Shown one piece after another: positions 1 to 64,000 of a stretch of 64,000 nucleotides of DNA. The notes under the pieces are model-generated. The model ran no database searches. It saw only the letters and a list, made by a program, of their open reading frames with translations, and was not told the DNA's origin. The stretch's first letter is position 1. The number at the start of each line of letters is the position of its first letter. Made by a program: the position numbers and the translations under genes. The stretch comes from Pontibacter arcticus (lineage in GTDB: Bacteria > Bacteroidota > Bacteroidia > Cytophagales > Hymenobacteraceae): contig NZ_QMDV01000001.1 in NCBI RefSeq assembly GCF_003284895.1, positions 957,080 to 1,021,079 on the forward strand. Direction: 5' to 3'.

Positions 1-64
1 TTATACTTTGTGGTATTATCTATTTATAATGTAAGCCAAGTATAAATCACAATCAGCCTAAAAC

Positions 65-97
65 AAAAAAGCCCGGAATCTCTTCCGGGCTTTTTTA
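65..97 (-). terminator. Intrinsic terminator of the gldK transcript
   Basis: An 11-bp stem (AAAAGCCCGGA pairing with TCCGGGCTTTT) around a 6-nt loop, with a T-run on either strand, directly follows the gldK stop codon. It implies that genes further downstream in the T9SS locus (expected gldL, outside the window) need their own promoter, or that read-through is controlled here. Confidence 0.85.
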
Positions 98-115
98 TAC
101 TTCAAAAAGTAATGT

Positions 116-1357
116 CTATTTGTTAGATCCGGCGTTGATCATAGCGCAACGGAAACCGATTGTAGCAGTAGAAGAATCCTGTGCCATGAAACGGCGTGTA
201 CCAGGAGATAACCAGTAAGCTACATCTTTCCAGGAGCCACCTTTAAATACGCGAACTTCGTCGTTAATTAAAGAGTGGTAACCTTCGCTTGAGTCGTAGT
301 TAGCAGAATCATCTAAGAAACCATCTCTACGGAAAGGGTTTAAGTCTTCCACATCTTCGTAAGAAAGCGGACGGTAAAGATCCTGTACCCATTCGTTTAC
401 GTTACCAGCCATGTTATACAAACCAAAGTCGTTTGGAGGGTAGCTGTAGATATAATCCGTGATCATGGCACCATCGTTTAATGAACCGGCAATACCGGCA
501 TAGTCACCACGGCCACGCTTGAAGTTAGCCATAAACTTACCCATTTCACGACCGTACGGGTTACGTACCTGGTGGCCATCCCAAGGGTAAAGTCTTCTGT
601 TGTTCTGGTTTTCGTCGTCAGAATATTGTGTACCGATCATTGCCTGAGCAGCATACTCCCATTCTGCTTCTGTTGGGAGACGATAGTTTGGTAATACGTA
701 ACCAGATTCGATCGTTGGCTTGCTTGCTTCAGCAGTAGGTTCGCTGCCACCTTTTCTGCGGCCAAATAAACCTCTTCTTCCACCGCCGTTTCCGTCTCCG
801 GCTTCTAAAGCAAGGTTTTCGTTTACCTTAGCTGTACGCCAAACGCAGAAATCGTTTGCCTGTAACCAGCTTACACCCACCACCGGGAAAAAGCGGAAAC
901 CAGGGTAACGCAGGTAATAAGAAATATATGGGTCGTTGAATGATAACTGGCGGGACCAAACAGTTGTATCCGGTAAAGCGGCTGTGTATACTTCCGGAAG
1001 AGAATCTTTCTTTAGGTAATGCAGGTACTCCAGCCAGGTAATATTCGATACTTCGGTTTCATCCATGTAGAAAGAAGCCACTGTAACGGTACGCTCAATA
1101 TTGTCACGGGTCATGGCAACATCTTCTTCCATAGAACCCAGCACTGTACGGCCACCTTCAATAAACACTAAACCCGGGCCTTGCGGAAACTCAGCGTAAT
1201 CATTTACCTGAAATGATCCTTCTTCTTCGTTGTAAGCTATGCCTGTAGCCGCACTTACATCGCCTGGGTTTGTGCTGGTTGGCTGGCCTCCCCTGTTACA
1301 GGAAGTCATCAGGAATCCGCCTACAACTGCAACCGATAAATACTTAATTAATCTCAT
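116..1357 (-). CDS. gldK: GldK-type T9SS lipoprotein (formylglycine-generating-enzyme-like fold)
   Basis: The product is a lipoprotein of the gliding/type IX secretion machinery. In the family, GldK/PorK forms a periplasmic ring on the outer membrane with GldN. The start is taken at the internal Met at 1357 (MRLIKYL), because it gives a compact signal peptide ending in a lipobox (FLMTSC) with lipidated Cys near residue 20. The rest looks like an FGE-sulfatase domain: GGRTVLGS near the start, a central RLPTEAEWEYAA motif, then GLYNMAGNVNEW and VFKGGSW near the end, finishing with GFRCA. A Gly/Arg-rich insert (GGGRRGLFGRRKGG) splits the domain. The upstream neighbour on the same strand is porP/sprF, the usual Cytophagales order. 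GldJ has the same fold; the PorP neighbour favours GldK. Confidence 0.82.
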   Translation of the reverse strand: MRLIKYLSVAVVGGFLMTSCNRGGQPTSTNPGDVSAATGIAYNEEEGSFQVNDYAEFPQGPGLVFIEGGRTVLGSMEEDVAMTRDNIERTVTVASFYMDETEVSNITWLEYLHYLKKDSLPEVYTAALPDTTVWSRQLSFNDPYISYYLRYPGFRFFPVVGVSWLQANDFCVWRTAKVNENLALEAGDGNGGGRRGLFGRRKGGSEPTAEASKPTIESGYVLPNYRLPTEAEWEYAAQAMIGTQYSDDENQNNRRLYPWDGHQVRNPYGREMGKFMANFKRGRGDYAGIAGSLNDGAMITDYIYSYPPNDFGLYNMAGNVNEWVQDLYRPLSYEDVEDLNPFRRDGFLDDSANYDSSEGYHSLINDEVRVFKGGSWKDVAYWLSPGTRRFMAQDSSTATIGFRCAMINAGSNK

Positions 1358-1421
1358 AAAAGTAGCACCCAATTTTGATAAGGTTCTTGTAACGTAATTT
1401 AATGTGCAATTATAACTAAAA

Positions 1422-2435
1422 TTAGAACGCCGGACAAAAAATGTTCCGTTTAATTTTGTGTCCTAAGTTGTTTTCGAAAAATTTTGTCAGAGACAGTTGT
1501 TCAAAAACCAGTGAAATTTCTGTTGCGCCACCCACCTGCTTGCTAAACCCCTTTAAACCAACGTCGTGGCTAAAACCGATCCTGAACTGAGAAAGTTGCA
1601 CACCGGCCATTAAAGCAAGCGTTTGGTCCTGGTTAGCATCGCCGGTAACCGGAACGCCTTTATATATTATGCCTAACGAAACAGGTGTGTAATTAGTGCT
1701 AAATCCTACATCAAATCTGTTAAAATTTTGTTGGTGGTGGTACGTAAGTGTTGGCGTAAAGCTAACTTCAAACAATTTGCCCCGCCGCTCATAGGCTTTC
1801 GCGTAAAATTTATACCCCGCAATAGCCGTATAATGGATAGAGAGCCTTGATTCTTGTTCAAATCCAGTGGATGGCATATTAAGATGCGCGGCGCTTAAAC
1901 CTGCCCAGAAACGGTTGGTATAAAGAAGTGTACCAACTTTAAAAGTAAGGTAATTGCTTGGTGTAAAGTTATTTACTTCGGCTGATGTGAGTGAGTGTTG
2001 CCCGTTGTCGGCCAGCTGATCTCCGAAAACCAGGTTATCATAATTTACGCGCAACGAGTTGATGCCCGCCTGTAAGCCTGCAGACATCGCCCATTTATCA
2101 GTAAGAGGAGTGCTATAACCATACATTACAGCGGCTTCGAGTTTTTGTAATCCTCCTATACCGGCCTTATCTTGCTGCACTATCGCCCCGATTGCACTTT
2201 TCTCACCTGGCAACCTGAAATCTGCACTAACCTGTTTGGTTACAAAGGCACCGTTAAGCGAAGGCCACTGGTTGCGGTAAGCGGTAGCCACACTCCAGTC
2301 GTGGTTCAAGCCGGTAAAAGCAGGGTTCAGGCTTAACCTGTTAGCGTATTGCTGCGTGAAATAAGTATCCTGGGCTGAAGCGTAGGTACAACCGAACAGG
2401 CAAAGTATAATCAGGTATATTTTTTTTATATTCAT
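1422..2435 (-). CDS. porP: Type IX secretion system membrane protein PorP/SprF family
   Basis: An outer-membrane beta-barrel of the PorP/SprF family, whose members work with the T9SS and surface delivery of adhesins. The start at 2435 (MNIKKIYLI) yields a clean signal peptide ending ...TYASAQ followed by the family N-terminus DTYFTQQYANRLSLNPAFTGL, split here as DTYFTQQY and NPAFTG. The remainder is alternating amphipathic strands with Gly/aromatic pairs (AAVMYGYS, KVGTLLYTNRFWAGLS, FRIGFSHDVGL). An in-frame extension to 2513 is possible but would hide the signal peptide. It lies 64 bp upstream of gldK on the same strand with no terminator between, so cotranscription is likely. Confidence 0.85.
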   Translation of the reverse strand: MNIKKIYLIILCLFGCTYASAQDTYFTQQYANRLSLNPAFTGLNHDWSVATAYRNQWPSLNGAFVTKQVSADFRLPGEKSAIGAIVQQDKAGIGGLQKLEAAVMYGYSTPLTDKWAMSAGLQAGINSLRVNYDNLVFGDQLADNGQHSLTSAEVNNFTPSNYLTFKVGTLLYTNRFWAGLSAAHLNMPSTGFEQESRLSIHYTAIAGYKFYAKAYERRGKLFEVSFTPTLTYHHQQNFNRFDVGFSTNYTPVSLGIIYKGVPVTGDANQDQTLALMAGVQLSQFRIGFSHDVGLKGFSKQVGGATEISLVFEQLSLTKFFENNLGHKIKRNIFCPAF

Positions 2436-2672
2436 GCCTGTAAGGAGGTAGTTAAGCGGTTGGTACGAGATAAATGGCACATTATTGGGTATGGCTACTG
2501 GCGTAGAAAACAAATATAGGTGTATCTTCTTGGTGTGCTATCAGTTTAACCTAAAGCAGGTCGTTATACAAACAGGGTATTAACTATACTTTGTTAACGC
2601 ATAGTTTGTACTTAAAAACACATAGTTTAGTTTCTATATTCAACAGAAAAGAATTTATAATTCACCCTTGAT

Positions 2673-5600
2673 ATGAAAAAAGTAGCTATAGGCTTTTTTA
2701 TTTTTCTGGCCCTGCTTTTTGCAGCAGCAGCCCTTGTACCCCTTCTTTTCAAAGATAAAATAAAACTGGCCCTCGATCAGCAGATCGCTAAAAGTATAAA
2801 TGCAAAAGTACTCTATAATACCGATGATGTGAGTGTGTCGCTTTTCAGGAACTTTCCCAACATCTCGCTTGGCGTAGATAACCTGATGATTATTGGTCAG
2901 GATTCTTTCCAGACGGATACGCTTGCTCAAATCCCGGCCTTTGATCTGGGCCTCGACCTGATGAGTGTGATCCGGGGCGATCAGCTTAAAATAAACTCGG
3001 TTACATTAGATGAGCCGGTGCTAAGGTTAGTAGTTCTGAAAAGTGGCAAGGCAAACTGGGATATTTTTATTCCGGACTCTGTCGCCGCACCAACCGATAC
3101 CACCGCTTCTGATTTTAGCATGGCGATAAAAGAATGGAACGTTACCAATGCCACTTTATACTATGATGACCTGAGCATTCCGTTTGGTTTGGCTGGTTAT
3201 AATGTAAACCACAGCGGCAGCGGCGATTTCGAGAAAGATGTGTTCGATATGGTATCGCAGACTACTGCCGACCGCTTTACCATGACCTATGATGGTATAA
3301 ACTACATCGAAAATGCGAAACTGAATGCAGGCGTAACGCTGGCCATGGATCTGGCAAAATCACTTTATACTTTTAAAGACAATAACATCAGGGTAAACGA
3401 TTTTCCGTTTCAGTTTGCCGGAAGTATACTGATGCCCGCCGATGACATTGACCTCGACCTCACATTTAACGCCACCGAAACCGAATTCAAGAATGTGCTG
3501 TCGGTAGTGCCGGGCATGTTTACAGAGCAGTTCAACGATATCAAAACAGAAGGCAAACTGAGCTTTGACGGCTATGTAAAAGGCCGCTTCAATGAAACAT
3601 CCATGCCTGGCTTCGGAACAAACCTGAAAGTAACCGAAGGCATGTTTAAATATCCGGACCTGCCACAGGCTGCCCGCAACATTAACGTGGATATGAGCAT
3701 CGATAACAAAGATGGTATCGTTAACAACACCAACATAGATGTGCGCAAGTTTCACCTGGACTTGGGCAAGAACCCGGTAGATGCAAAAATGCTGGTGCAA
3801 GGCCTCGACCCAATGAAGCTGGATGGTAACGTGAAAGCAAGTATAGATTTAACCGAAATCACAAAAGTTTTTCCGGTAGATGGTATGACGCTGCGTGGCC
3901 TGCTGAAAGTAGATGCTGACGCCAAAGGTGTGTATAGCAAAACAAGTATGCCGGTTGTAGATGCCGACATGCGCCTGACAAACGGGTATGTAAAGTCAAA
4001 GGATTTTCCGGCGCCTATCCAGAACCTGAATGTGATAGCAAACATCCTGAATAAAACCGGCAACACCGATGATACACGCATCAACATCGAAAACTTTAAC
4101 ATGAACCTGGATGGAGAACCCCTTTCCGGCCGTGCTTTGGTGCAAGGTATAGATAAGCCTGCGTTCGATGTAACCATTAAAGGTATACTTGACCTGACAA
4201 AACTGACCAAGATTTTCCCGCAGGAAGGCATGACAGTGGCTGGCCGCATTAACGCCAATGTTTCAGCGAAAGGCAAAATGGTCGATATCGAAGCTGAAAA
4301 GTACGATAACATTGTTGCCAGCGGTACGATGGGCATCAGCAACCTGAACTTTGTGAGCACCGATTTGCCGCAAGGCATGAAGATTACCAACGCCAACGCC
4401 ACCTTTAATAACGAGCGCATCCAGTTGCAGAACATGAACGGCTATCTGGGCAAAAGCGACTTTAAAGCAGATGGCTACATTGCAAATTACATGGGCTACG
4501 CGTTTTCAGAAAATCAGTCTTTAAAAGGGAACATTAACCTGAGCACCAACAGCTTTAATGTGAACGAATGGATGGTAGATGAAAATACCGGCCAGACGGT
4601 GCCGGCTACAGCTTCGGTGGCAGAACAGGCACAAGGCGTAGTAGAAGTACCAGCTAACCTGGACATTACCCTGAACGTGAACGCCAGGCAGGTAAAGTAT
4701 GATAACCTGAACCTGAACAATGTAAATGGTAGTGTGAAACTGAAAGACCAGATTGCACGCCTGGATGGTGTAAAGTTTAATACGCTGGGTGGCAGTTTTG
4801 TAACCAACGGCAGCTACAATACACAAAATATACAGCAGCCTTTATTTGATTTCGATCTGGATATAAAGAACCTGAAGTTTAAAGAGGCTTTCGATGCATT
4901 TAATACCATAAAAGTAATAGCTCCGATTGCCGGCTTGCTCGAAGGCACTTTCTCTACTAAGTTTGATTTTGCCGGTGAGATTGGCCAGGATATGCTGCCC
5001 GTGTTCAAGACCCTGACGGGCAACGGAATTATTGATGTGGTGCGTGCCGCCGTACGGGATGTAAAAGTGGTAGAAAGAATCAGTGCGCTGACTCGTTTTG
5101 ATGAGCTCCGTAACTTTGTAGTAGAAAACCGACGCCTGGATGCGCAGATCGTAAATGGCAGTCTGGTGATCAAACCATTCGATCTGAAAGTTGGCGACAT
5201 CGAAATGAAAGTGGGTGGTAGCAATAATATTAACGGCCAGATAGATTATGTAACCGCCCTGAACGTGCCGACCGGCAAAGTAGGCCAGGAACTGAACTCA
5301 CGCCTGGCTGGCTTTATGGGCGGTCAGTTAAAAACAGCTGAGCGCGTTACGCTTAACCTGAACATTGGCGGTACGCTGAGCGAACCGAAAGTGGCTCTGG
5401 CAGGCGGCACTGTTAAAGAACAGGCAAAAGACCTGGTAAAAACTGCCGTAGATAATAAACTGAACGAAGCCAAAGCTAACCTGAACCAACGCAAACAACT
5501 GGCCGAAGATAGTATCCGGAACGAACTGAACAGACGCAAACTGGAAGCAGAGCAGAAAGCTCGCGCCGAAATTGAAAAGAAACGCCTGGAAGCAGAGCAG

Positions 5601-5696: not shown

Positions 5697-5699
5697 AAT

Positions 5700-5883: not shown

Positions 5884-5885
5884 AC

Positions 5886-6362: not shown

Positions 6363-6491
6363 GATGGTATGCTAAGCTGATTAATCGTTACGCTCTGTTA
6401 AAGTATACTTCCCGGGCCATTCGTTTTGTAAACCCGGGAATCGCCGCAAAGGTAAGTATAATTTGTATTTCCGGAACGGGTTACGGTATAC

Positions 6492-6872: not shown

Positions 6873-6902
6873 AGGGAAGTATAAGTAAGTTGATTTATAC
6901 TT

Positions 6903-16504: not shown

Positions 16505-19432
16505 ATGAAATTTAATTATTTAACTTCATTTATACGGGATTACCTTATCGCAATTCTTTCTTTTCTGCTGATTTTTCTGCTGACCATTTTCGTGTACCAG
16601 GAAACAAGCAAGAAGGCGGAAGAACGAAGTGCGAAATTATTTGACGTCCGGGCTAACCAGGCCACGGAAGCGATCAAATCCAGAATGTATGATTATATAC
16701 AAATACTGGTAGGCGCAAAAGCGCTGTTTGTTGCCTCCGATACAGTAGAGCGCAAAGCATGGCGGGAGTATTACAAAAACCTGAACCTGGATGAGAACTA
16801 CCCGGGCATACAAGGCATTGGCTACACACAAAGTATCAGGCCCGGAGAACTAAGAAAAGTAAAGCAAAACTTAATAGCAGAAGGCTTTCCGGATTTCGTA
16901 ATAACGCCCCGTGGCAAGCGCCCCGAATATACAGCCATTATTTACCTGGAGCCTTTTAATGCGCGCAACAGGCGTGCTTTTGGGTACGATATGTTTTCGG
17001 ATCCGGTACGCCAGTCGGCGATGCGTATGGCCCGCGATACCAAACAGGCAACCATGAGTGCAAAGGTACGGCTGGTGCAGGAAACCGGTAAAAACGAGCA
17101 GACCGGCTTCCTTATTTACCTGCCTGTTTACCGCAAGAATCTGGACCCGCAATCGATAACTGACCGCCAGAAGTTAATTAAAGGGTACATATACAGCCCG
17201 TTCAGGGCAGGCGACCTGATGCGCGCTATTTTAGGGGATGATTTTAATGACCTGGACGTGGAAGTGTATGATGGCGCCAATATCACCAAAAAAGGATTGA
17301 TCTACAGCACTACGCCTAACCTGCTTTATGGCACCAAGAGCAGAGAATATACTAGGCTTAATACCTTAACAATCGGTAACCATACCTGGCGGCTTTACAT
17401 AACCGGCAAGCCACGCTTCGATCAGTCAGCAGATTCGGAGTTGCCTTTCTTTATTCTGGTAGGTGGCAGTATCATTAGCCTGCTGATGTTCTTTATTATC
17501 TGGTCGCTTTCTAATGTGCGCCGCTCCAACCGCCTGAAACAAACCATTACCGATAATGCCACTGCAGCGCTTTTTATCATTAACTCGAAAGGCTACTGTA
17601 CCTTTATGAACCCGGCCGCTGAGAAAATGACAGGCTTTACGTTCGAGGAAATGGCAGAAGATACCTTGCACAATAAACTGCATTACAAGTATCCGGACGG
17701 GAGGCCGATGCCTGCATCTGATTGCCCGATGTACACAGCACTTACCGTTAGCGGACCTTTGCATAACTACGAAACAGTCTTTTTCCGGAAAGATGGCTCA
17801 GCCTTGAATGTATCCTGTGAAGTACAACCGATACTGGAAAGTGGCCGCGAAGCATACGCCATTATCGAAGCGCGGGATATAACGAACGAGAAACGCGCCC
17901 AGGAAGCGATTGTAGAAAGCGAAAAGCGTTTCAGGATGATGGCTGATAATGCCCCCGTTATGATCCGGATTACAGATGACCGGAAACAGGTCATGTACGG
18001 CAACAAACAATGGATCGATTTTACTGGGCTAACCCTCCACGAAACAAAAACTCAGGGCTGGCAACAGCTTATTCATCCAAAAGACCTTGCAGGGTTTAAT
18101 GAGATATTCTCGAAGGCAGTGGTAGATAAATCCGCTTTCCGGGTAGAGTACCGCATGCGCCGTCGCGATGGAAAGTATAGATGGGTTGTGGGTACCAACA
18201 CGCCACGCCTGGGCGCAAATAACGAGTTTCTGGGCCACATCAGTTCGATCATCGATATCACAGAAATAAAGAAGGCCGAACAAAAGATAAAACAGAACGC
18301 AGAGTTACTCCAGAAACTCTTCCTGGAGGTACCTGCAGTGGTAGGGCTGGTGCGCGTACCGGATTTCCAGTATGTATTGGCAAACCCGCTTTACAGGCAG
18401 CTTTACGGCAACAGGCAACTGGTAGGCAAAACCATACAGGAAGCACACAGCAGAACAGAAATAGGCAAACTAAAGCAACGCCTGGAAAAAGTATACGCCA
18501 CAGGCGAAGTATTTGTGGGCAACGAAATGCCTGTTACGGTAGAGGATGAAGCTGGCAATGAAGTAATGAGCGGCTTCTTTAACCTGGTGTACCAGCCGCT
18601 GCTGGATGTAAAGGGGGGCGTGGAAGCAATTCTTATTTTTGCAGTTGATGTAACCGAGCTTGTTAAGACACGCAAAAACATTGCAATTGCAAATGATGAG
18701 CTGAGCGAGAAAAATATAGAACTGCTCCGCATCAACAACGACCTGGACAGCTTTGTGTATACGGCATCGCACGACCTGAAATCGCCGATTGCCAACATGG
18801 AAGGCCTGGTTACCCTGCTGCGCGATATACTGCAGGGCAAACTCGAAGAACAGGACGGGCAGGTACTGGATATGGTCGCGAGCTCTATTAACAAATTAAA
18901 ACGCACCATTGCCGACCTTGCCGAAATAACCAAAGTGCAGAAAGATCTGCAATCGGAAGTGGAACCGCTTAAATTCTCTGCCAAGTTACAGGACGTGCTC
19001 ACCGATATTGAGCCGCTCGTGCAGGAATCCGGTGCTACCATTGAAACCGATTTTAAAGTAGACCAGATTCTGTATGCCCCTAAAAACCTGCGCAGCATTA
19101 TTTACAACCTGGTATCCAATGGTATAAAGTATAGATCGTCGGGACGCGTGCCGGTTGTGAAAGTATGTACGTACCAGGAGGATAACTTTATTGTGATGGA
19201 GGTGTCTGACAACGGCCTCGGCATTAAAGAAGACCAGCAGCACAAACTGTTCAGCATGTTCAGGCGTTTGCACACGCACGTAGAGGGCACCGGCATTGGC
19301 TTGTACATCATCAAGCGCATTATCGAAAACAACGGCGGCCGCATCGAGGTAATCAGTGAGCTGGACAAAGGCACAACTTTTAAAGTATACTTCAAGCAAG
19401 AAACCCAGAAACTTAAGCCTGTTGCAAGTTAA
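16505..19432 (+). CDS. Hybrid-sensing histidine kinase (CHASE, three PAS, HisKA, HATPase)
   Basis: A membrane-bound sensor kinase of about 975 residues from the ATG at 16505. An upstream in-frame ATG (16421) would add 28 residues before the first membrane helix and is less likely. Order: helix ~17-36; periplasmic CHASE domain with GYDMFSDPVRQSAM near 159; second helix near 312-334; PAS domains near 350, 478 and 602; HisKA with the phospho-acceptor His in ASHDLKSP near 756; HATPase with N box NLVSNGIKYR near 867, DNGLGIKE and GTGIGLYIIK. There is no receiver domain and no response regulator adjacent, so the partner must be encoded elsewhere. CHASE usually binds small ligands such as cytokinin-like adenines or peptides; the ligand here is unknown. 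Confidence 0.93.
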   Translation: MKFNYLTSFIRDYLIAILSFLLIFLLTIFVYQETSKKAEERSAKLFDVRANQATEAIKSRMYDYIQILVGAKALFVASDTVERKAWREYYKNLNLDENYPGIQGIGYTQSIRPGELRKVKQNLIAEGFPDFVITPRGKRPEYTAIIYLEPFNARNRRAFGYDMFSDPVRQSAMRMARDTKQATMSAKVRLVQETGKNEQTGFLIYLPVYRKNLDPQSITDRQKLIKGYIYSPFRAGDLMRAILGDDFNDLDVEVYDGANITKKGLIYSTTPNLLYGTKSREYTRLNTLTIGNHTWRLYITGKPRFDQSADSELPFFILVGGSIISLLMFFIIWSLSNVRRSNRLKQTITDNATAALFIINSKGYCTFMNPAAEKMTGFTFEEMAEDTLHNKLHYKYPDGRPMPASDCPMYTALTVSGPLHNYETVFFRKDGSALNVSCEVQPILESGREAYAIIEARDITNEKRAQEAIVESEKRFRMMADNAPVMIRITDDRKQVMYGNKQWIDFTGLTLHETKTQGWQQLIHPKDLAGFNEIFSKAVVDKSAFRVEYRMRRRDGKYRWVVGTNTPRLGANNEFLGHISSIIDITEIKKAEQKIKQNAELLQKLFLEVPAVVGLVRVPDFQYVLANPLYRQLYGNRQLVGKTIQEAHSRTEIGKLKQRLEKVYATGEVFVGNEMPVTVEDEAGNEVMSGFFNLVYQPLLDVKGGVEAILIFAVDVTELVKTRKNIAIANDELSEKNIELLRINNDLDSFVYTASHDLKSPIANMEGLVTLLRDILQGKLEEQDGQVLDMVASSINKLKRTIADLAEITKVQKDLQSEVEPLKFSAKLQDVLTDIEPLVQESGATIETDFKVDQILYAPKNLRSIIYNLVSNGIKYRSSGRVPVVKVCTYQEDNFIVMEVSDNGLGIKEDQQHKLFSMFRRLHTHVEGTGIGLYIIKRIIENNGGRIEVISELDKGTTFKVYFKQETQKLKPVAS

Positions 19433-19515: not shown

Positions 19516-20895
19516 ATGGCTAAAATAAAAACATCGTACTTCTGCCAGAACTGCGGCGCCCAATCAGCAAAATGGATTGGTAAATGCCCGGCCTGCGGCG
19601 AATGGAATACTTATGTAGAAGAGGTAGTGCAGCGCGAAGAAGTAACGCCTACCAGTGCCTGGAAAGTGGGTAGCAGCTCCGCACAGGTATCCAGCAAGCC
19701 AAAGCCGATAGCCGACATCAGTTACCAGGAGCAGCAACGCATCATTACCCAGGACCAGGAACTGAACCGCGTACTAGGTGGTGGCATTGTGCCGGGTTCG
19801 ATGGTACTGATCGGGGGCGAGCCGGGCATCGGCAAATCTACGCTGATGTTACAAATAGCCTTAACCTTGAGCAGTTTACGGGTATTGTATGTGAGCGGCG
19901 AGGAAAGCGAGCAGCAGATAAAAATGCGCGCCGAACGCCTTGTAGCCCAAACCTCAGACTGCTTTATACTGACCGAAACCGGCACACAGAATATTTTTAA
20001 ACAGATAGAACTGCTGCGCCCACAAGTATTGATCATCGACTCGATCCAGACGCTGCATTCTACGTTTATTGAGGCAGGTGCCGGCAGCGTAAGCCAGGTG
20101 CGCGAGTGTACCGCCGAATTGCTGAAGTTTGCAAAAGAAAGCGGCACACCTGTTTTCCTGATCGGCCACATTACAAAAGAAGGCAACCTGGCCGGGCCTA
20201 AAATTCTGGAACACATGGTAGATACGGTGCTGCAGTTCGAAGGCGACCGCCACATGACCTACCGCATACTTCGTACTACCAAAAACCGCTTCGGCTCTAC
20301 TTCTGAACTGGGCATTTACGAAATGATGGGCTCCGGCCTGCGCGAAGTAAGCAACCCTTCCGAGATACTGATTACCCAACGCGAAGACGCTTTCAGTGGC
20401 ATATCCATCGGCGGAACGCTGGAAGGAAACCGGCCTTTACTGATAGAAGTACAAAGTCTGGTTAGCCCTGCTACGTATGGCACACCACAACGCACCAGCA
20501 CCGGTTTTGATGGCAAACGCCTGAACATGCTGCTGGCCGTACTCGAGAAAAGAGGCGGTTACAAACTGGGCGCACAGGACGTGTTCCTGAACATTGCCGG
20601 CGGCTTGAAAGTAGAAGACCCGGCACTGGACCTGGCTGTATGTGTGTCCATACTCTCGTCTTTCGAGGATATAGCCATACCCAGCACCACCTGTTTTGCC
20701 GCAGAAGTTGGGTTGGGTGGCGAAGTGCGTGCCGTTAACCGCGTAGAAAACCGCATCACGGAAGCAGAAAAACTGGGCTTTACCGATATCTATATTTCAA
20801 AGTATAACAAGAAAGGCGTAGACCTGAGCAAATTCACGATCAGAATCCACGCGTTTGGCAGGCTCGAAGAAGTTTTCGGAAGCTTATTCGGGTAA
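19516..20895 (+). CDS. radA: DNA repair protein RadA (Sms)
   Basis: A RecA-like branch-migration helicase acting in recombination and repair. The N-terminal zinc finger (C10, C13, C24, C27) is intact. Walker A is GGEPGIGKST near residue 101, the RadA-specific KNRFG near residue 256, and the Lon-like C-terminal domain runs from about residue 290 (RTSTGFDGKRLNMLLAVLEK and PALDLAVCVSI). At 459 residues the length is normal. In transforming bacteria RadA also extends incoming single strands, which is of interest given the iterated octamer clustered just downstream. Confidence 0.97.
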   Translation: MAKIKTSYFCQNCGAQSAKWIGKCPACGEWNTYVEEVVQREEVTPTSAWKVGSSSAQVSSKPKPIADISYQEQQRIITQDQELNRVLGGGIVPGSMVLIGGEPGIGKSTLMLQIALTLSSLRVLYVSGEESEQQIKMRAERLVAQTSDCFILTETGTQNIFKQIELLRPQVLIIDSIQTLHSTFIEAGAGSVSQVRECTAELLKFAKESGTPVFLIGHITKEGNLAGPKILEHMVDTVLQFEGDRHMTYRILRTTKNRFGSTSELGIYEMMGSGLREVSNPSEILITQREDAFSGISIGGTLEGNRPLLIEVQSLVSPATYGTPQRTSTGFDGKRLNMLLAVLEKRGGYKLGAQDVFLNIAGGLKVEDPALDLAVCVSILSSFEDIAIPSTTCFAAEVGLGGEVRAVNRVENRITEAEKLGFTDIYISKYNKKGVDLSKFTIRIHAFGRLEEVFGSLFG

Positions 20896-21021
20896 GTATA
20901 AAGTATAAATTAAAGTATAAGAGAAAGCCTCTCATCAGAAACAGAGAAAATCATACTTTAAAAGTATAACTTACTGATACCCATACTTCCGGAAATAGAA
21001 AGCGTTAATCAAAGTATAAAT
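20893..21021. repeat. Dense cluster of AAGTATAA motifs downstream of radA
   Basis: Five exact AAGTATAA copies lie within 130 bp after the radA stop (near 20894, 20901, 20913, 20962 and 21011), together with degenerate CATACTT copies in the opposite orientation near 20953 and 20981. No gene is present. The rest of the radA-21215 spacer holds only the terminator at 21024. Confidence 0.85.
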
Positions 21022-29501: not shown

Positions 29502-29810
29502 ATGACTGAAGATACAAACGATAAACCAAAAGCCTCTTTAAAAGGCGTACCCGGTTCGGAGCGGCCCATCCGCATCGAGCCTAATAATACAGACGAGCAG
29601 GAGATGCGCGCCGGCCATATTATACCAGATGCCGACCCCCCGAAAAATGAGCACCAGCGTGGCGGTTTCGGGAACCGCGATGGCAAAGAAGGCTATGGCA
29701 GCGACACAGCTGGAAACGGACCATCTGCTATTGGTGTAAATGATTATTCTGATGACGGAACTCCCCCACCAGATAACATGCGCACCGAAGACGAAGGTCG
29801 CGGAAGTTGA
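29502..29810 (+). CDS. Small hydrophilic disordered protein
   Basis: A 102-residue protein with no hydrophobic segment and a composition rich in Gly, Asp, Glu, Asn and Pro (KGVPGSERPIRIEP, PDADPPKNEHQRGGFGNRDG, DYSDDGTPPPDN). It resembles hydrophilin-type stress proteins in composition but I recognise no family. It sits 87 bp after the stress-type SDR and before another hydrophilic gene. After its stop come two overlapping AAGTATAA motifs. Confidence 0.65.
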   Translation: MTEDTNDKPKASLKGVPGSERPIRIEPNNTDEQEMRAGHIIPDADPPKNEHQRGGFGNRDGKEGYGSDTAGNGPSAIGVNDYSDDGTPPPDNMRTEDEGRGS

Positions 29811-29884
29811 TAAAGTATAAAGTATAAATTCGGGCTGATGTAGCGTAATACAAGCGCATCGCCTATAGTTTTAATTTAAAAAAA

Positions 29885-30222: not shown

Positions 30223-30918
30223 ATGGCCCGCTACGCAATTACAGACATACACGGCTGTCTCCGGACATTTAAAGCATTGGTTACAGCGCAGCTGCAGTTA
30301 AAGAAAAGCGATGAATTATACTTGCTGGGCGATTATGTAAACAAAGGCCCGGATAGCAAAGGGGTAATAGATTTTATACTTCATTTACAGAAGCAAGGCT
30401 ACCAGGTTATCTGCCTGCGCGGCAACCACGACCAGATGTTATTAAGTGCTGTCGAAAAAGGAGATAAAGTACTTAAACTAACGCCTGCAGAAAAAAAAAT
30501 GACACTGGCCAGTTTTGGAATCAATACGTTTTCGCACTTATCCGATAAGTATACTTCCTTTTTAGATGGTTTGCTTTATTACCTGGAGTTGCCAGATTGC
30601 TTTCTGGTGCACGCCGGCTTCGATTTTAACCAATCTGATATTTTTAAGGATAAAGATGCCATGCTGAACATACGCCAGTACAAAACAGATTGGGCTAGAT
30701 TAAATAACAAGCGCCTTATCCATGGACACACACCTGTTGCTTTACATAGTATAAAACTGGCAGCAACCACAAAAGTAAAGCAAGTTAACCTGGATGCTGG
30801 CTGCGTTTATTACCGCAATGCTTCTTACGGCAACCTCGTCGCGCTTGACCTGGACAGCTACCAGATTTACGTGCAACCCAACCTCGATAAGCCTTATAAA
30901 GTGGGAGTTAAGAAATAA
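30223..30918 (+). CDS. Serine/threonine-protein-phosphatase-like metallophosphoesterase
   Basis: A 231-residue metallophosphoesterase of the PrpA/lambda-phosphatase or ApaH-like type. The three metal motifs are present: DIHGC near residue 8, GDYVNKGPDS near residue 42 (usual GDxVDRGPxS; here Asn-Lys replace Asp-Arg), and LRGNHDQM near residue 72. Later metal histidines are in LVHAGF and LIHGHTPV. Substrate could be phosphoprotein or diadenosine polyphosphate. The gene stands alone after a terminator. Confidence 0.88.
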   Translation: MARYAITDIHGCLRTFKALVTAQLQLKKSDELYLLGDYVNKGPDSKGVIDFILHLQKQGYQVICLRGNHDQMLLSAVEKGDKVLKLTPAEKKMTLASFGINTFSHLSDKYTSFLDGLLYYLELPDCFLVHAGFDFNQSDIFKDKDAMLNIRQYKTDWARLNNKRLIHGHTPVALHSIKLAATTKVKQVNLDAGCVYYRNASYGNLVALDLDSYQIYVQPNLDKPYKVGVKK

Positions 30919-31331
30919 ATATTTTGTTAAAATGTAATAATTCTTATAAAATATTGTTTGTTAAAACAAGAAGAGGGTTAAGTTTCATATTAAAGCTTGC
31001 CCTTATAGGTTGATAGGGTAGCAGAAATTTTTGCACAGATTCAGCGTAGTTTTATTCTAAAATTATTTTATTTTTATCCTTTCTGAATGCTAAAAATGGC
31101 ATTTAACACTGGTTTTGCTAAATAACTGATATATAAAGTATAGCATGTGCATCATATGTTAATTATCCTATAAATTTTCAGAATTATTTAGTAGGTTAAA
31201 TAAACTCATGCCCCTACGAAAATAAGTTTAGAAAGTTATCACACTCTGAAGAATATTGACTTATTTTGTGGTTATAATTAACACAACAACAAAGTTATTC
31301 AACGCATATCTATTACGTTCAACCGAAAGCC
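30919..31331 (+). other. AT-rich intergenic region upstream of the T9SS cargo gene
   Basis: This 413-bp stretch holds no plausible gene. It is strongly AT-rich, matching the AT-rich 5' part of the following gene and unlike the flanking housekeeping DNA. No exact AAGTATAA motif is seen. TTATTTTG at 31260 is one mismatch from a -7 box and is a weak promoter candidate. Confidence 0.6.
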
Positions 31332-33581
31332 ATGATGCAACTCTACACTTTTAACCGTAAGCGGTTATTATCTACTCTGCTTCTGCAGTTTATTTTCCTG
31401 TTAGGCTTTGCTGGCCAGAGCTTTGGACAGACTCAGATTTTCAGAGAGACGATGGGAACAGAGGTCTCAGATGACATTACAATACACGAAAATCAAAATC
31501 GTTTTGATAATGATAACTTTACAATGTCAGGGAATGCTATTGTTGGATTTGCTTCTCAAGATAATGCTTCTTACCCTAATGCTTCGAAGGGTAATATTAT
31601 TAGTTTATATCCGGAAGAGTTCTTTCAGATTGATGGAATAAATACAACGAATCTAACGGGGCTAAGCCTCTCTGTAGCTATGTGGAGAGATTCAAATGTT
31701 GAAACTGGCTCAGGATTAAGTATACAATTTAGTACAGATGGAAGCAATTGGCAAAACTTTTCATTTGCTAACTTAACCACAGGTTCAACACCTTGGGAGG
31801 AACGGGTATTAACTCCTGGCTCTGGCGGATCGATCCCGGCAGTTGCTAATCTAAGACTTCGCTTTAGCAACAATAGTAACGATTTTGTAGCTTATGAAAT
31901 TGATGACATTAGATTAGTGAATGTTTCTAATGAACCAACAATAACAAGTTTTTCTCCCATTTCCGGGCCAATCAATACAATAATTACTATTCTTGGATCG
32001 AATCTGCAAAATGTTAACAGAGCAAGTTTAGGAACTACTCAACTAACAGTTATCTCAAGTAGTGCTACAGAAGTAAAGGTTCAAGTTACCGCAGCACCTT
32101 CGCGGGCTTCTCAACCAATTCGATTATTAAACGGGAGTACTCTGCTTGTAACATCATCAGCTAATTTTAATTTTATTAGACCGACTATAACATCTATGTC
32201 TCCTATGGGAGCATTGGTAGGAACTGAAATTGTTTTTATAGGAACAGAATTAGGCACCACGTCAGCAGTTCATTTTGCAGCAGGGGCAGATGCGGAAATA
32301 ACTTTCACAAGCCCTACGGAAATTAGAGCTAAAGTTCCAGCAAATGCTATAAGTGGTCAGGTGCAGATTATTACTGCTATTGGTACGGCAGGCAGTCCTC
32401 AAAACTTTACAGTATACCGGCCTATCATTAATTCTATCTCTTCTACAAGTGGCAGAGAAGGCGAGACTGTCATAATTAGAGGTACACGTTTGCTCATAGG
32501 AGGAACGCCAACCATCAGATTTGGTGGAAACACTTCGGCTACAATAGTAGGAACACCTTCTTCAACTGATGGTATTGACCAAATTACAGTTACAGTACCG
32601 GTTGGAGCCCAGACAGGAGCTATCACGCTAACAACAACTGAAGGAAGCGTTCAGTCAGGAAATTTTACAGTTATCCGACCTGCACTAACATTCACAGGAA
32701 CGCCTTTAGCAAAGTTTGAAGCATTTTTAAATAATTCTTCAGCAGTACAGCAATATCAAGTCACAGGTTCTAATATGAATAGTGGTTTGTCTATAACTGC
32801 GCCTCAGCATTTTGAAATAGCTACAACTAATTCAGAGGTCTCATTTGCTGGTACTGCTTTTATCCCAATGCAGGCTGACAATACAATTGCACTTACAACT
32901 ATTTTTGTAAGATATAAGCCAACAATTACTGATACACATACTGGAAATATTTCGCATATATCCTCAGGTTTAGTAACAAGCAATGTAATTGTACAAGGAG
33001 TAACAATAGCTAAACTCCCAGTAGAACTGATCTCTTTCACAGCAGAGCAGCAGCGTAACAGCACCTTACTGAAATGGGCGACTGCATCAGAAAAAGACAA
33101 TGCTTACTTTGATGTAGAAATGTCTGACAACGCGGCGGAAGGCTTTACGAAAATTGATAAAGTAGAAAGTAAAGTAGTAAACAGCAACACGCTTACAAAG
33201 TATACTTACAAGCACCTGTATGCAGGCAAAGGTGGCACCAGGTATTACCGCTTAAAGCAAAACGACCTGAATGGCATGTTCAAGTACAGCAATGTAGTAT
33301 CTGTAGAAACTCAGAACGAAGTATCGGGAAACTCGGTAAGAGTAGCACCTAACCCGCTTAACTATAGCTCTAAAGTATACTTTACAGCGGCGGCTTCAGG
33401 TAAGGCAACGCTGCGCTTAACGGCTATTGCAGGCAAGCAGGTATACCAGAAAGAAGTTGACGTACAGGCCGGGGAAAACGGAATACAATTGCCGGTATAT
33501 GATACACTGAAAAACGGTATCTATGTACTAACCATCGAAGTAGAGGGCAAGCGCCAGCAGGTAAAGGTGGTAAAACAATAA
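31332..33581 (+). CDS. T9SS-secreted multi-domain surface protein with IPT/TIG-like repeats
   Basis: A 749-residue exported protein. A signal peptide (LLQFIFLLGFAGQSFGQ) leads into a beta-sandwich N-terminal domain (to about residue 195), then three or more IPT/TIG-like repeats with the recurring phrase 'ITSFSPISGPINTIITILG', here also as SMSPMGALVGTEIVFIG and SISSTSGREGETVIIRG. The repeats are followed by a beta domain, the Bacteroidota linker LPVELISFTAEQQ, and a type A sorting domain from about residue 660 (VRVAPNPL, GKQVYQKEV, KNGIYVLTI). Such proteins are secreted and anchored by the T9SS encoded at the left of this window. The DNA is AT-rich up to about 33000 and normal after that, suggesting a mosaic. 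Confidence 0.88.
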   Translation: MMQLYTFNRKRLLSTLLLQFIFLLGFAGQSFGQTQIFRETMGTEVSDDITIHENQNRFDNDNFTMSGNAIVGFASQDNASYPNASKGNIISLYPEEFFQIDGINTTNLTGLSLSVAMWRDSNVETGSGLSIQFSTDGSNWQNFSFANLTTGSTPWEERVLTPGSGGSIPAVANLRLRFSNNSNDFVAYEIDDIRLVNVSNEPTITSFSPISGPINTIITILGSNLQNVNRASLGTTQLTVISSSATEVKVQVTAAPSRASQPIRLLNGSTLLVTSSANFNFIRPTITSMSPMGALVGTEIVFIGTELGTTSAVHFAAGADAEITFTSPTEIRAKVPANAISGQVQIITAIGTAGSPQNFTVYRPIINSISSTSGREGETVIIRGTRLLIGGTPTIRFGGNTSATIVGTPSSTDGIDQITVTVPVGAQTGAITLTTTEGSVQSGNFTVIRPALTFTGTPLAKFEAFLNNSSAVQQYQVTGSNMNSGLSITAPQHFEIATTNSEVSFAGTAFIPMQADNTIALTTIFVRYKPTITDTHTGNISHISSGLVTSNVIVQGVTIAKLPVELISFTAEQQRNSTLLKWATASEKDNAYFDVEMSDNAAEGFTKIDKVESKVVNSNTLTKYTYKHLYAGKGGTRYYRLKQNDLNGMFKYSNVVSVETQNEVSGNSVRVAPNPLNYSSKVYFTAAASGKATLRLTAIAGKQVYQKEVDVQAGENGIQLPVYDTLKNGIYVLTIEVEGKRQQVKVVKQ

Positions 33582-58750: not shown

Positions 58751-58881
58751 ACCCAAAAATATTGTAATATACCGAATAAAGCAAGAAAGCTCTTATATCT
58801 TTTATAGACTATACTTGTTCTTGAGTGTAGGTAAGAGAATAGCAGGTAAACGTACTAAAGTTATAAGTTTTGTGAATAAAG

Positions 58882-59298: not shown

Positions 59299-59335
59299 AA
59301 AAAGAGCTGAAGGCAAGATAAAAGTATAAAATTAG

Positions 59336-60031: not shown

Positions 60032-60063
60032 CTGGATTTAAGTTACTGAAATTGCTTTGATAC

Positions 60064-60786: not shown

Positions 60787-60830
60787 AAACTTTGAAAGTA
60801 TAGGTTTTAGTAGCGTACAGGGCTTCTTCA

Positions 60831-61136: not shown

Positions 61137-61139
61137 GGC

Positions 61140-61574
61140 TTACACGCTCTTTAAAAAGTGGTAGCCTTTTATAATGAAGCCTTCCCGGAAGTAGAAACGG
61201 TGGGCGGCACTGTTGGTGGCGTAAGCATCCAGCATCAGCGTCTGGCAGTTGTGGCGCTTTGCTTCCTGGTGCAGCCAGTCCGATAAAATTTTACCAATGC
61301 CTTTGGCCCTGTAGGTTTCATCCACTACAAAATTATCGATTTCGAGGTACTTGCCGCTGTAGAGTTTCGTGCTTACCCAGTAACCCGACAAGCCAACACA
61401 GGTTTCGCCGGCAAAAGCACCTACCATCCGGTAATTATGAGGCAGCATTTGTTCGAGCAGCTCCTGGTAGCGGGCAAAAGTCATATCCGGGTTAAGTTGC
61501 TGTATAAGGTGGTGCTGCGCCAGCATTTGCGGGAGCGCTGTTATCTCTTGTATCGTTATGGCTGATGTGGTCAT
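61140..61574 (-). CDS. GNAT-family N-acetyltransferase
   Basis: A 144-residue acetyltransferase of the GNAT superfamily. The acetyl-CoA loop is AKGIGKILSDWLHQEAK near residue 92 (Q/RxxGxG/A type: here YRAKGIGK), and the C-terminal strands TLMLDAYATNSAAHRFYFREGFI, quoted in part, complete the fold. The N-terminal LPQMLAQHHLIQQL is helical. Acceptor unknown. First gene of a minus-strand group ending with the 60064 gene. Confidence 0.88.
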   Translation of the reverse strand: MTTSAITIQEITALPQMLAQHHLIQQLNPDMTFARYQELLEQMLPHNYRMVGAFAGETCVGLSGYWVSTKLYSGKYLEIDNFVVDETYRAKGIGKILSDWLHQEAKRHNCQTLMLDAYATNSAAHRFYFREGFIIKGYHFLKSV

Positions 61575-61884
61575 GTGTGGATGGTGCGGTTGTACCTGCA
61601 GGGTTTTTGGGTACAGGGCTTAGTTAGTAGCTCAGTGTAAGCAATCCCAATCTGATAGCTGGTTTGAAGCGCTTAAAACAACGTGCCCGCCGCCTGATCT
61701 GGTTTACAGTTTATACTTGTGTGTTCACTAATTTCTGTACAATTTCTAAACAAAACGCCTGTTTGTAAATTATTCTGGCTTAAAGGTATAAATATGTGAA
61801 GAACTTACTTGTACACATTTTAGATTTTGAAACAATACCGGGCCATACCTCCGTTAGAAGTGAAAGGAAGACGAAGGATGGGAT
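61575..61884. other. Divergent intergenic region without a gene
   Basis: This 310-bp spacer separates the minus-strand GNAT gene and the plus-strand 61885 gene. It must hold both promoters. It contains one TTATACTT copy at about 61711 and otherwise no structure I can name. Confidence 0.6.
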
Positions 61885-62112
61885 ATGAAATTAATAAAGA
61901 ATACAAAATTAACGAACTATAACGTACTTAATAAAATGGATAAACGAAAGATCTTTAGTATTGGCTACGAAGATCTGACGACTCTTATCTTCTACCACGA
62001 TAAAAAAAATAAATTTATTCTGGTTATTGCCAAAGAAGACGACCCCCCGTTAATTATAGAGAAAAAGATATCAAGAGCAGAAGCATTCAGATTAATGAAC
62101 ACCCGGAGATAA
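61885..62112 (+). CDS. Small hypothetical protein
   Basis: A 75-residue charged protein (or 58 residues from an internal ATG at 61936). Phrases such as IGYEDLTTLIFYHDKKNKFILVIA, quoted in part, and IIEKKISRAEAFRLMNTRR suggest a small beta-sheet followed by a helix. No family is recognised. Its stop lies inside the stem of its own terminator. Confidence 0.55.
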   Translation: MKLIKNTKLTNYNVLNKMDKRKIFSIGYEDLTTLIFYHDKKNKFILVIAKEDDPPLIIEKKISRAEAFRLMNTRR

Positions 62113-62132
62113 AGCACCGGGTGTTTTTGTTT
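62098..62132 (+). terminator. Terminator of the 61885 gene
   Basis: AACACCCGG, 10-nt loop, CCGGGTGTT, then a T-run. The gene's last codons and stop are part of the hairpin. Confidence 0.85.
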
Positions 62133-62273
62133 TATAGCAAGTATAAAATCTACAACAGGGCTGCCGGTAGCAGCAAACCAAAGTATAAACCAGGCAGTTA
62201 ATTTTTTTTCTGGTGATGGCACTTTTGTGGTAGTTGTTTTGCTGTGTCTTTAAGCGTATAAAACAAGCATACC

Positions 62274-62531
62274 ATGTCGGAGCAAAACATAATGGCAGAT
62301 GTAAACCAGGTGCAGCACATGTTCCTGCGGGTAGAGAATAGTGAAGTAACCTGCCTTATGAATATTGCAGGCCACCCTTACCGCCTGCGCGAGCTGATCT
62401 TTATGATGGTAGAGAATGGCTGCCGCGTACGGAAGTCCACAGCCGATGAGTTTAATATCTTCCTGTTTGATAAAGAAACCGTAGAGGTACACGATTACCT
62501 GACCTCTATTATAAAAGCCAGATTTGCTTAA
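62274..62531 (+). CDS. Small conserved-looking hypothetical protein
   Basis: An 85-residue protein: MSEQNIMADVNQVQHMFLRV then a beta strand, YRLRELIFMMVENGCRVR and FNIFLFDKETVEVHDYL. The alternation of strands and helices suggests a compact alpha/beta fold. No family is recognised. It is a single-gene unit followed by a shared terminator. Confidence 0.62.
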   Translation: MSEQNIMADVNQVQHMFLRVENSEVTCLMNIAGHPYRLRELIFMMVENGCRVRKSTADEFNIFLFDKETVEVHDYLTSIIKARFA

Positions 62532-62535
62532 AACA

Positions 62536-62569
62536 AAGAAGGCACTGCTGCTGCAGTGCCTTCTTTATT
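62536..62569. terminator. Bidirectional terminator, 62274 gene / hsp20
   Basis: AAAGAAGGCACTGC pairs with GCAGTGCCTTCTTT with a short loop; A-run and T-run flank the stem between convergent genes. Confidence 0.88.
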
Positions 62570-62954
62570 AGAGTTTCTGTATCTCAATTTCGCGGGATTC
62601 GGAGTCTGTTTCCTGGTACGGCAGTTTTATCTGCAACCTGTTTTCCGAGTAAATCGCTTCTATCCTGTTTCTGTCTACTTGCGGCGGTAAGCTAAATACC
62701 TTGCTGAACAGCGGAGCAGCCATATTTTCGTTTTCCTCACTAAAAAGAAGCGAGCTTACAATCAGTTTATTCTCATGTAAAACTACTTTAAAAGCATCAG
62801 CAGATACGCCTGCCGCCTGTACTTCCACTACTGTTCCTTTTTTATATTTAGTTACGTCAATCTGCGTTTCGCTAACCCCACCACCTACTGTATTTAACAA
62901 GTCGATCTGATGGGCGATATTGCGAAGCAGCTCTTTATCTTTTATCAGTTTCAT
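62568..62954 (-). CDS. Hsp20/alpha-crystallin family protein
   Basis: A 128-residue small heat-shock-like protein from the ATG at 62954 (MKLIKDKELLRNIAHQ). The alpha-crystallin domain spans about residues 30-125: TQIDVTKYKKGTVVEVQAAGV, quoted in part, then KVVLHENKLIVSSL, SKVFSLPPQVDRNRIEA and YSENRLQIKLPY, whose LPPQVDRNRIEA-YSENRLQIKLPY pattern is the hallmark. The N-terminal part is short, so oligomer properties may differ. Holdase chaperone role is by family. Confidence 0.85.
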   Translation of the reverse strand: MKLIKDKELLRNIAHQIDLLNTVGGGVSETQIDVTKYKKGTVVEVQAAGVSADAFKVVLHENKLIVSSLLFSEENENMAAPLFSKVFSLPPQVDRNRIEAIYSENRLQIKLPYQETDSESREIEIQKL

Positions 62955-63238
62955 CTGTTTTTCCTTTGGTTTTATACTGGATGCTATGCAAAGCAAGTGC
63001 CAGTGTTTGCAAAGTAGCCATTACATGTACCTACAGTATTACTGCGCCAAGATGACTTGTTACGGCAACTTACCACCTCCAAATAAAGCCAAGCTGTCAG
63101 GTAGTTAAAGTATAAAAAAAGAGAAAAAGTTGTTTGTTGAAGTATAGGCTAGCTATGGTAACAGGCTTGCCTGGCGCCTTGTTTTACAACTGATGCAAAA
63201 TCTTTCCGTAATAATAGCAGAACTAAAAACTCCTACCT

Positions 63239-63886
63239 ATGAAAAAAATGAAAACAACCGTAGCTATATTACTTGTACTGGGCTCTTTTTCAGCCTGTAA
63301 CCAAACAGCAGAAAGAGATGTGGATTCCAAAGAAGAAGTAGATGCCATTGCCTCTGCTGATACGGCCGTAATGTATGGCAACGACGGGAATATGAGAGAT
63401 GCCGAAGACGTAGAAATAAAAGAGATGGGCGATGCCTTCTGGAATGATATAGACTTTAACATGCCTGTTGTAAAAGATGCCGGCATTACCGATGCTGATA
63501 TTGAAACCCGCCGGGGCGACAACGCGACTATTTATTCGTTAGGCGAAAACTTATTGTTTGATACAGATAAGGCTACGCTAAGAGCAGGCGCAGATACTAA
63601 GCTGAAGCAGATTGCCGAGTCTATTAAGCAATACGATCCGCAAAGCCAGATCCGTGTTTATGGTTATACCGATGCACGTGCCAGCAAAACATATAATAAA
63701 GAACTGGCCGAAGACCGCGCTGAAGCAGTAGAAGATTGGTTGGAGAAAAACGGTAATATAGACGATAACCGTATATCGGTACATGCCGTTGGCGAAGCCC
63801 GCCCGGTTGCTTCTAACGAAACAGCTTCCGGCCGCCAGCAAAACCGCCGTGTAGAGATTGTAGCTGCTAAATCAGTTAAAGAATAA
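63239..63886 (+). CDS. OmpA-family lipoprotein
   Basis: A 215-residue lipoprotein: signal peptide ending GSFSAC (lipobox), a short acidic linker with low complexity, and a C-terminal OmpA/MotB domain from about residue 100 (LLFDTDKATLRAGADTKLKQIAESI, quoted in part, RVYGYTDARASKTYNKELAEDRAEAV, quoted in part, and GRQQNRRVEIV). The domain binds peptidoglycan non-covalently, with the usual Asp and Arg. The protein tethers outer membrane to cell wall by family inference. Confidence 0.92.
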   Translation: MKKMKTTVAILLVLGSFSACNQTAERDVDSKEEVDAIASADTAVMYGNDGNMRDAEDVEIKEMGDAFWNDIDFNMPVVKDAGITDADIETRRGDNATIYSLGENLLFDTDKATLRAGADTKLKQIAESIKQYDPQSQIRVYGYTDARASKTYNKELAEDRAEAVEDWLEKNGNIDDNRISVHAVGEARPVASNETASGRQQNRRVEIVAAKSVKE

Positions 63887-63904
63887 GCTTATCTAAAGTA
63901 TAAA

Positions 63905-63947
63905 GCAGAAAGGCCATTGCAGCATTTGCAGTGGCCTTTCGCTTTTA
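63905..63947 (+). terminator. Terminator of the OmpA-family gene
   Basis: GAAAGGCCATTGCA pairs (one G:T wobble) with TGCAGTGGCCTTTC around a short loop, with T residues following. An AAGTATAA copy precedes it. Confidence 0.85.
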
Positions 63948-64000
63948 CCCGGCTATGCCTCGGATGCTAAAAAAGTATAAACTGAAGCAGCGTAGCAATG

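Follow-up and report, generated by a model that had tools for sequence, protein, structure and literature searches.

A densely iterated octamer with clade-specific dialects in Pontibacter, a candidate DNA-uptake-like self mark

The genome of Pontibacter arcticus is filled with exact copies of an eight-base word, AAGTATAA, which is conspicuous in a 64,000-nucleotide stretch of this bacterium (assembly GCF_003284895.1, contig NZ_QMDV01000001.1, positions 957,080 to 1,021,079; hereafter the window). It is a sharply defined, direction-neutral word at the DNA level, and is not a mobile repeat, a codon effect, a promoter or an RNA element. Related words take its place in other species of the genus, and some species carry none of them at high density. 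These genomic patterns suggest that AAGTATAA may be a self mark resembling DNA uptake sequences, spread by biased uptake and recombination, a reading to which we give about an even chance of being correct.

Exact copies of AAGTATAA and TTATACTT, counted together over the two strands, head the octamer ranking of the window with 111 occurrences (78 on the plus strand and 33 on the minus strand), compared to 3.2 expected from base composition and 3.4 from a dinucleotide model. The first-pass annotation of this DNA had counted a little over 100 copies where about three were expected, which agrees with our figures, and had put the GC content near 47%, which is corrected here to 45.5%. The 6-bp core AAGTAT/ATACTT occurs 246 times. 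The whole-genome count that the same annotation called for gave 5,593 copies in 3,771,860 bases on 7 contigs, or one per 674 bp, compared to 134 for the reversed octamer, and lies far above the null expectations given below. The strand imbalance of the window is local, since genome-wide the strands are balanced for both the word (2,747 forward, 2,846 reverse) and the reversed octamer (62 and 72).

Finer properties were analyzed in a set of 844 kb, consisting of the window and 39 stretches of 20 kb from the same genome; stretch L135, which overlaps the window, was excluded, and two stretches of contig C6 (L098 and L154) were treated separately. In this set, 695 genes were called with a simple home-made caller that tends to start genes short. 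The set holds 1,345 copies, approximately 32 per 20 kb. Shuffling of synonymous codons in 653 of the genes (partial and odd-length genes excluded) predicted 62.5 +/- 7.4 copies, roughly one-tenth of the 638 observed, and between genes 648 copies were found where base composition predicted 12.1 and an order-2 Markov model 30.3. No substitution at positions 1–6 reached more than 2.8 times its expectation, and the single-base variants that were clearly enriched fell at the last two positions (G at position 7, 6.7-fold; G and C at position 8, 9.9-fold and 7.0-fold). Because the flanks share just one favoured A on each side, with slight base preferences further out, the word is not a mobile repeat; a test for mobile, repetitive extragenic palindromic and miniature inverted-repeat elements likewise revealed no longer common unit around it.

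Placement of the copies favours the space between genes. Density was 0.95 per kb within genes (666 copies) and 4.54 per kb in intergenic DNA, with 31 copies lying across gene ends. As the first-pass annotation had stated, copies occur in both orientations, within and between genes: of those in genes, the coding strand carries 326 and the opposite strand 340, and between co-directional genes the numbers are 184 and 183. Every codon frame is used, although the frame that places TAA in frame has only 18 copies, presumably at gene ends. Upstream of gene starts, density is lowest at 25–50 bp (3.5 per kb, the next lowest being 3.6), indicating that promoters are not favoured, and there is a mild excess immediately 3' of stop codons. 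GC hairpins adjoin 54 of 662 intergenic copies, compared to 17 of 662 random intergenic positions, and among close intergenic pairs, 18 of the 78 arranged as AAGTATAA..TTATACTT continue into a stem that is 5 bp or longer, as do none of the 54 with the opposite arrangement. A minority of copies thus bracket terminator-like hairpins, as uptake sequences do. Examples and landmarks in the window are as follows.

38 to 102, no strand: inverted pair AAGTATAA...TTATACTT flanking a GC-rich hairpin, 57-bp offset, terminator-like; the words lie outside the GC stem, and the pair is not among the 18.
6877 to 6902, no strand: inverted pair AAGTATAA...TTATACTT, 18-bp offset, between called genes.
19383 to 19392, no strand: AAGTATACTT palindrome, one of seven, not enriched beyond its parts.
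19516 to 20895, plus strand: radA, identified by RadA-like Pfam domains and by its relatives; the anchor for fetching loci.
20894 to 20920, plus strand: three direct copies (20894, 20901, 20913) at or after the radA stop codon, with more at 20962 and 21012.
29813 to 29827, plus strand: two direct copies, 7-bp offset, after the stop of the open reading frame 29502–29810.
30900 to 33000, no strand: AT-rich segment with GC 0.37 and no exact copy, about 2 being expected.

Orthologous 20-kb stretches around radA were fetched from 40 relatives (4 of 36 relatives in one set yielded none). The RadA protein of the window shares 91–94% identity with the four Pontibacter proteins listed by name, and no more than 87% with those of the other 76 loci kept, which places it in Pontibacter (Bacteroidota, Cytophagales). 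In the stretches of 32 relatives, the top octamers were related to each other but differed between species, and three dialects could be defined: A, which is AAGTATAA; B, which is AGGTATAG; and C, which is AACTATA[AG] (AACTATAR). Counting as carriers those genomes in which a dialect reaches at least 10 times its reversed control, we found A in 23, B in 12 and C in 6 of 50 Pontibacter genomes, with A and C together in 2, for a union of 39. AACTATAR reaches up to 11,475 copies per genome. Both A and C pass the threshold in G027 and G065, and G032 comes close, with A at 24.1 and C at 9.5 times control. The remaining 11 species, hereafter called motif-less, show at most 4.8 times control for each of the three dialects. 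Several of these have a weak excess of A (G007, 4.8-fold; G024, 3.7-fold; G025, 2.7-fold), which may reflect decay. Outside the genus, all 22 members of the order examined were at approximately the control level or lower for AAGTATAA, and Rufibacter, Sabulibacter and Adhaeribacter had 0 or 1 copy in the single 21-kb stretch taken from each genus. The proposal of an iterated signal that is specific to the lineage and akin to DNA uptake sequences or to HIP1 of cyanobacteria is therefore upheld by a genome-wide excess over both Markov and synonymous expectations and by this distribution.

In a tree built from 11 proteins, which places 41 of the 50 species and leaves 9 off, all 9 B species sampled group together in a clade (support 1.0), as do the 5 C species with G027 and G032 (support 1.0). 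The A species are scattered over the rest and do not form a single clade, and the 11 motif-less species fall into two groups (support 0.50 and 0.76) inside a set composed of A and motif-less species (0.98). It seems that the motif-less species lost the word, in two groups. Their genomes are larger, with a median of 5.8 Mb compared to 4.6 Mb for the 39 carriers (Mann-Whitney p = 3.5e-6, ignoring descent), an association that may rest on two events.

G071 has A at 34.6 and C at 4.8 times control, yet lies off the C clade, and is perhaps a separate mixed state. In G036, GGTATAA occurs 33 times in 40 kb where 6 are expected, and is perhaps a fourth form. In G020, a tandem array (G020:C1:1944098-1946633), in which AGGTATAG recurs roughly 40 times at even intervals of some 66 bases, inflates the count of that word.

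Maintenance of individual sites was followed in 11 orthologue alignments from the radA neighbourhood, with up to 21 species, by asking whether the same six-mer stood at the same codon columns; 5 of 16 gene groups, present in fewer than 12 loci, were skipped. Between species of the same dialect, sites were identical in 732 of 1627 comparisons for A (45%, compared to 25.6% for the controls, which were all other six-mers), 468 of 627 for B (75%, control 39.8%) and 80 of 153 for C (52%, control 31.4%). Across dialects, only 77 of 1209 A sites (6.4%) still read AAGTAT in B species, compared to 20.0% for controls, and 150 of 1123 B sites (13.4%) read AGGTAT in A species. The mixed genome G065 was scored as C in the main comparison, and the comparison of A with C was repeated without it: 60 of 481 A sites (12.5%) read AAGTAT in C species, and 4 of 369 C sites (1.1%) read AACTAT in A species, with control values of 20.1% in each case. 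In G065 alone, A sites persist in 50 of 164 cases. This asymmetry in persistence suggests that A predates C, and that most C sites formed afresh. Sites are therefore kept above control within a dialect and below control across dialects, which answers the question of positional conservation between species that the first-pass annotation had raised. Maintenance of sites in their own dialect, replacement mostly by new words, and wholesale apparent loss are what biased uptake would be expected to produce.

The mechanism that we envisage would require a reader, the DNA-binding part of a Bacteroidota DNA-import system or of a recombination system linked to import, that recognises A-A-G-T-A-T-(A>G)-(A>G,C) in DNA. 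If fragments bearing the word were imported and recombined more often than others, mutations that create the word would tend to spread, and the chromosome would fill with words wherever the sequence tolerates them. A change of specificity in the reader of one lineage would allow a new dialect to build up while the old one decayed, and loss of the reader would leave the words to decay with nothing replacing them. The reader, biased uptake as the driving force, and loss of the word in motif-less species are what we infer from these patterns. ComEC was present in all 50 genomes; this is weak evidence, because 10 of 14 control genomes have it too.

Several results weigh against this mechanism. A search for the type IV pilin family PF07963 gave hits in 8 of 14 control genomes and in 0 of the 50 Pontibacter genomes; a ComP-like minor pilin of type IV, insofar as PF07963 detects it, was not found in the 50 genomes, and nor was any reader. 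For T2SSE/PilB (PF00437), the 50 genomes gave short matches only, of about 38–66 of 370 positions, and no full-length match, although in most genomes at most 31 of 27–45 first-look candidates were scored and the absence is not exhaustive. The short matches, slightly over the cut-off in 3 of the 50 genomes, are read as probably the P-loop of other ATPases. Motif-less species carry ComEC as well. DUF5689, a surface-protein domain of Riemerella, occurs in 17 of 39 motif-bearing and 5 of 11 motif-less species, and the short-form loci that were inspected often have a SusD-like gene alongside, so that they look like a nutrient-uptake locus. No paper on Pontibacter transformation was among the best 15 of 1,630 matches in our literature search. 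The maintenance counts are over related pairs, which are not independent events, and the control six-mers were not composition-matched. The commonest word of B species at A sites was AAGTAC (179 of 1209), ahead of AGGTAT (122 of 1209). Copies are slightly clustered (coefficient of variation 1.30, compared to 1.12 +/- 0.03 at random), genes with the weakest coding score have the highest density of words (by rising score quintile, 1.30, 1.32, 1.05, 0.76 and 0.59 copies per kb), and intergenic pairs within 60 bp are inverted in 96 cases and direct in 101, such that the inverted class is not in excess.

The following expectations were set aside on these grounds: a type IV pilus as receptor, given no PF07963 and only short PF00437 matches among the candidates scored; DUF5689 as the reader, since its presence does not match the distribution of the word; even spacing of the copies; and replacement of A sites by B sites one for one, which is not visible. 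A preference for core genes was not found by coding-score quintiles, the score being a proxy and not a core-genome test. Since neither a type IV pilin nor a full-length match to PilB was found, any reader would be of a new kind. We have not filed AAGTATAA as a DNA uptake sequence, because the pilus receptor was looked for and not found, and we infer uptake only.

Two observations concern the genes searched. In two motif-bearing species, comEC has one stop in the matched frame (G009:C76:160505-161305 and G022:C1:2771217-2771876). Loci L183-L194 encode short DUF5689 proteins in open frames of 413–450 amino acids, with a neighbour that by eye is SusD-like, and a gene that by eye is phosphatase-like can follow.

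Among other explanations, the word could be bound by an abundant protein that organises or replicates the chromosome, with the density of the word along the chromosome under selection. The sharp, protein-like specificity, the neutrality of orientation and the conserved sites would all fit, but every switch of dialect would require thousands of sites to change in concert, 11 of the 50 species manage with no strong dialect, and upstream of gene starts the density is lowest at 25–50 bp, so that promoters are not favoured. On balance we regard this as unlikely.

A signal resembling Chi, read as single-stranded DNA by a nuclease of the AddAB/RecBCD type that guards the cell's own DNA and directs its repair, would also be a lineage-specific octamer, with dialects that shift as the nuclease changes, and the low density of copies on DNA of mobile appearance would be consistent with it. 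The leading-strand share of AAGTATAA, with strand assigned from local GC skew, is 662 of 1,141 (0.58), and its local strand skew tracks GC skew over 20-kb stretches (r = 0.57). However, 135 permuted octamers of the same letters have a mean share of 0.53 with a standard deviation of 0.07 (pooled, 0.54), such that there is no polarity beyond composition, and the bias for which the first-pass annotation had proposed a check is not borne out. Chi, in contrast, is polarised on the leading strand and occurs once per 5 kb in E. coli, according to the portion of PMC8022716 available to us, which is far sparser than the Pontibacter word. Intergenic preference and inverted pairs would be unexpected of a one-way signal, and we consider an explanation of this kind distinctly unlikely.

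HIP1 (GCGATCGC) of cyanobacteria is likewise a very frequent iterated octamer, and the excerpted text of PMC4390886 describes HIP words that replace it in some lineages. A word of this type, preserved through methylation or through mutation (by directed mismatch repair, for example), is quite improbable here. HIP1 is palindromic, GC-rich and tied to orphan methylases, whereas AAGTATAA is asymmetric and not its own reverse complement; single-mismatch neighbours are not strongly depleted (lowest 0.7-fold), and the expected supply of any one neighbour (11–109 copies) is too small to yield 1,345 copies. Dialects, losses and terminator pairing, which the first-pass annotation did not include and which we add here, place the Pontibacter word nearer to uptake sequences than to HIP1.

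An RNA-level signal, or a part of promoters or terminators, could draw on the hairpins that adjoin some copies and on the mild excess after stop codons, but it is very improbable, because orientation relative to transcription is even both in genes and between co-directional genes, half of the copies lie inside genes, and dialects differ between sister clades. Debris of a mobile repeat family, an explanation that the first-pass annotation said would overturn its proposal, is refuted for the bulk of copies by flanks that share at most one favoured base per side and by copies in all permitted codon frames; nothing in the P. arcticus genome favours it, and the nearest case is the G020 array, which involves another word.

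The proposed self mark shares several traits with the DNA uptake sequences (DUS) of Neisseriaceae and the uptake signal sequences (USS) of Pasteurellaceae. In the sections of PMC3630211 and PMC5217627 on which we rely, these words are present in thousands of exact copies in coding and intergenic DNA, with placement in permissive regions, dialects distributed by clade, two of them together in one genome, and inverted pairs at terminators; we take the dialects of Neisseria DUS (PMC3630211) as the model for a word maintained or replaced by biased uptake. Pontibacter differs in belonging to another phylum, in its AT-rich word, in the negative searches for a type IV pilin and for a full-length PilB match, and in the apparent loss of the word from two species groups. 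Orientation differs too, being biased to one direction in genes for DUS/USS, as given in part of PMC2346458, and even for the Pontibacter word.

Within the Bacteroidota, the closest parallel is the transformation system of Riemerella, which also includes ComEC. From the portions of the literature available to us, R. columbina prefers self-DNA (PMC7965970), TonB is involved in transformation of R. anatipestifer (PMC8383284), and 4 of 8 essential transformation genes of R. anatipestifer resemble ComEC, DprA, ComF and RecA while 4 have no known counterpart (PMC8459023), such that Bacteroidota transformation with largely unknown envelope genes is already in print for this genus. Riemerella differs in that the k-mer survey, in the text of PMC7965970 that we could consult, gave only A-rich words, with 8-mers less than 3 times expectation, and reports no such mark; DUF5689, the one special Riemerella envelope gene searched for in Pontibacter, does not track the word.

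To our knowledge, the only groups in which sequence-specific DNA uptake is established are two families of Proteobacteria, and both have type IV pili. So strong a mark in Bacteroidota, where pilins were not detected, would imply that either the DNA receptor or the self mark is of a novel type. With three dialects, genomes of mixed dialect and apparent losses among its 50 sequenced species, the genus allows a reader to be searched for by its presence or absence and by its co-variation with dialect, and how such words arise, switch and vanish becomes directly testable in Pontibacter. The first-pass annotation knew of no description of the word, and we likewise found none among the matches listed from open-licence PubMed Central papers: no paper there combined Pontibacter with the word, and none of the best 30 of 565 matches containing the AAGTATAA letters was on this subject.

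Iterated words of unrelated letters recur in this group. Hymenobacter wooponensis (L044, G087) has 4,381 genome-wide copies of CTAGGCCA, compared to 68 for the reversed word; among 18 other genomes, 17 have 29–90 copies and Solirubrum puertoriconensis has 225 (control 56). We would suggest, tentatively and as somewhat short of probable, that Hymenobacteraceae (Pontibacter, at least one Hymenobacter and possibly Solirubrum) independently evolved species-tagging words read by a pilus-free import system, which would place sequence-specific uptake outside Neisseriaceae and Pasteurellaceae, with rapid turnover of dialects in one genus, mixed intermediates, and loss accompanied by larger genomes.

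In a single stretch of S. puertoriconensis (L019), the top word was ACCTAGG, with 30 copies in 21 kb compared to 2.7 expected. Clusters resembling TTATCCACA, a word that we take to represent DnaA boxes clustered near radA, were observed near radA in L039 and L014, where the octamer TATCCACA occurs 21 and 13 times in 21 kb and TTATCCACA has genome-wide counts of 123 and 94. As an iterated word in Echinicola and Indibacter loci, TTATCCACA was rejected, with whole-genome counts of 69–126 in 12 of 15 genomes and 33–49 in the other three.

The 10-bp palindrome AAGTATACTT, which the first-pass annotation had reported as recurring, is indeed present at 7 sites in the window (6401, 19383, 30547, 33198, 33373, 49568 and 58115). 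Its both-strand count of 14 is close to the 12.5 predicted from overlapping nonamers, and it is therefore rejected as a separate signal.

The same annotation had also described copies as almost absent from two AT-rich segments. The counts are 2 copies at 10.3–12.1 kb and 0 at 30.9–33.0 kb, and the evidence is weak, because genic density predicts about 2 in each. Contig C6 gives stronger evidence, though it is one contig, with 6 copies in the two 20-kb stretches taken from it. This 139-kb contig of P. arcticus (G000) has few copies of the word and encodes domains of a TOTE conflict system, a reverse transcriptase, and ArdC-like and HerA-like proteins, and it looks like a mobile replicon or island. 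It also contains two PF00437 matches of equal score (C6:4104 and C6:78441), which may reflect a duplication.

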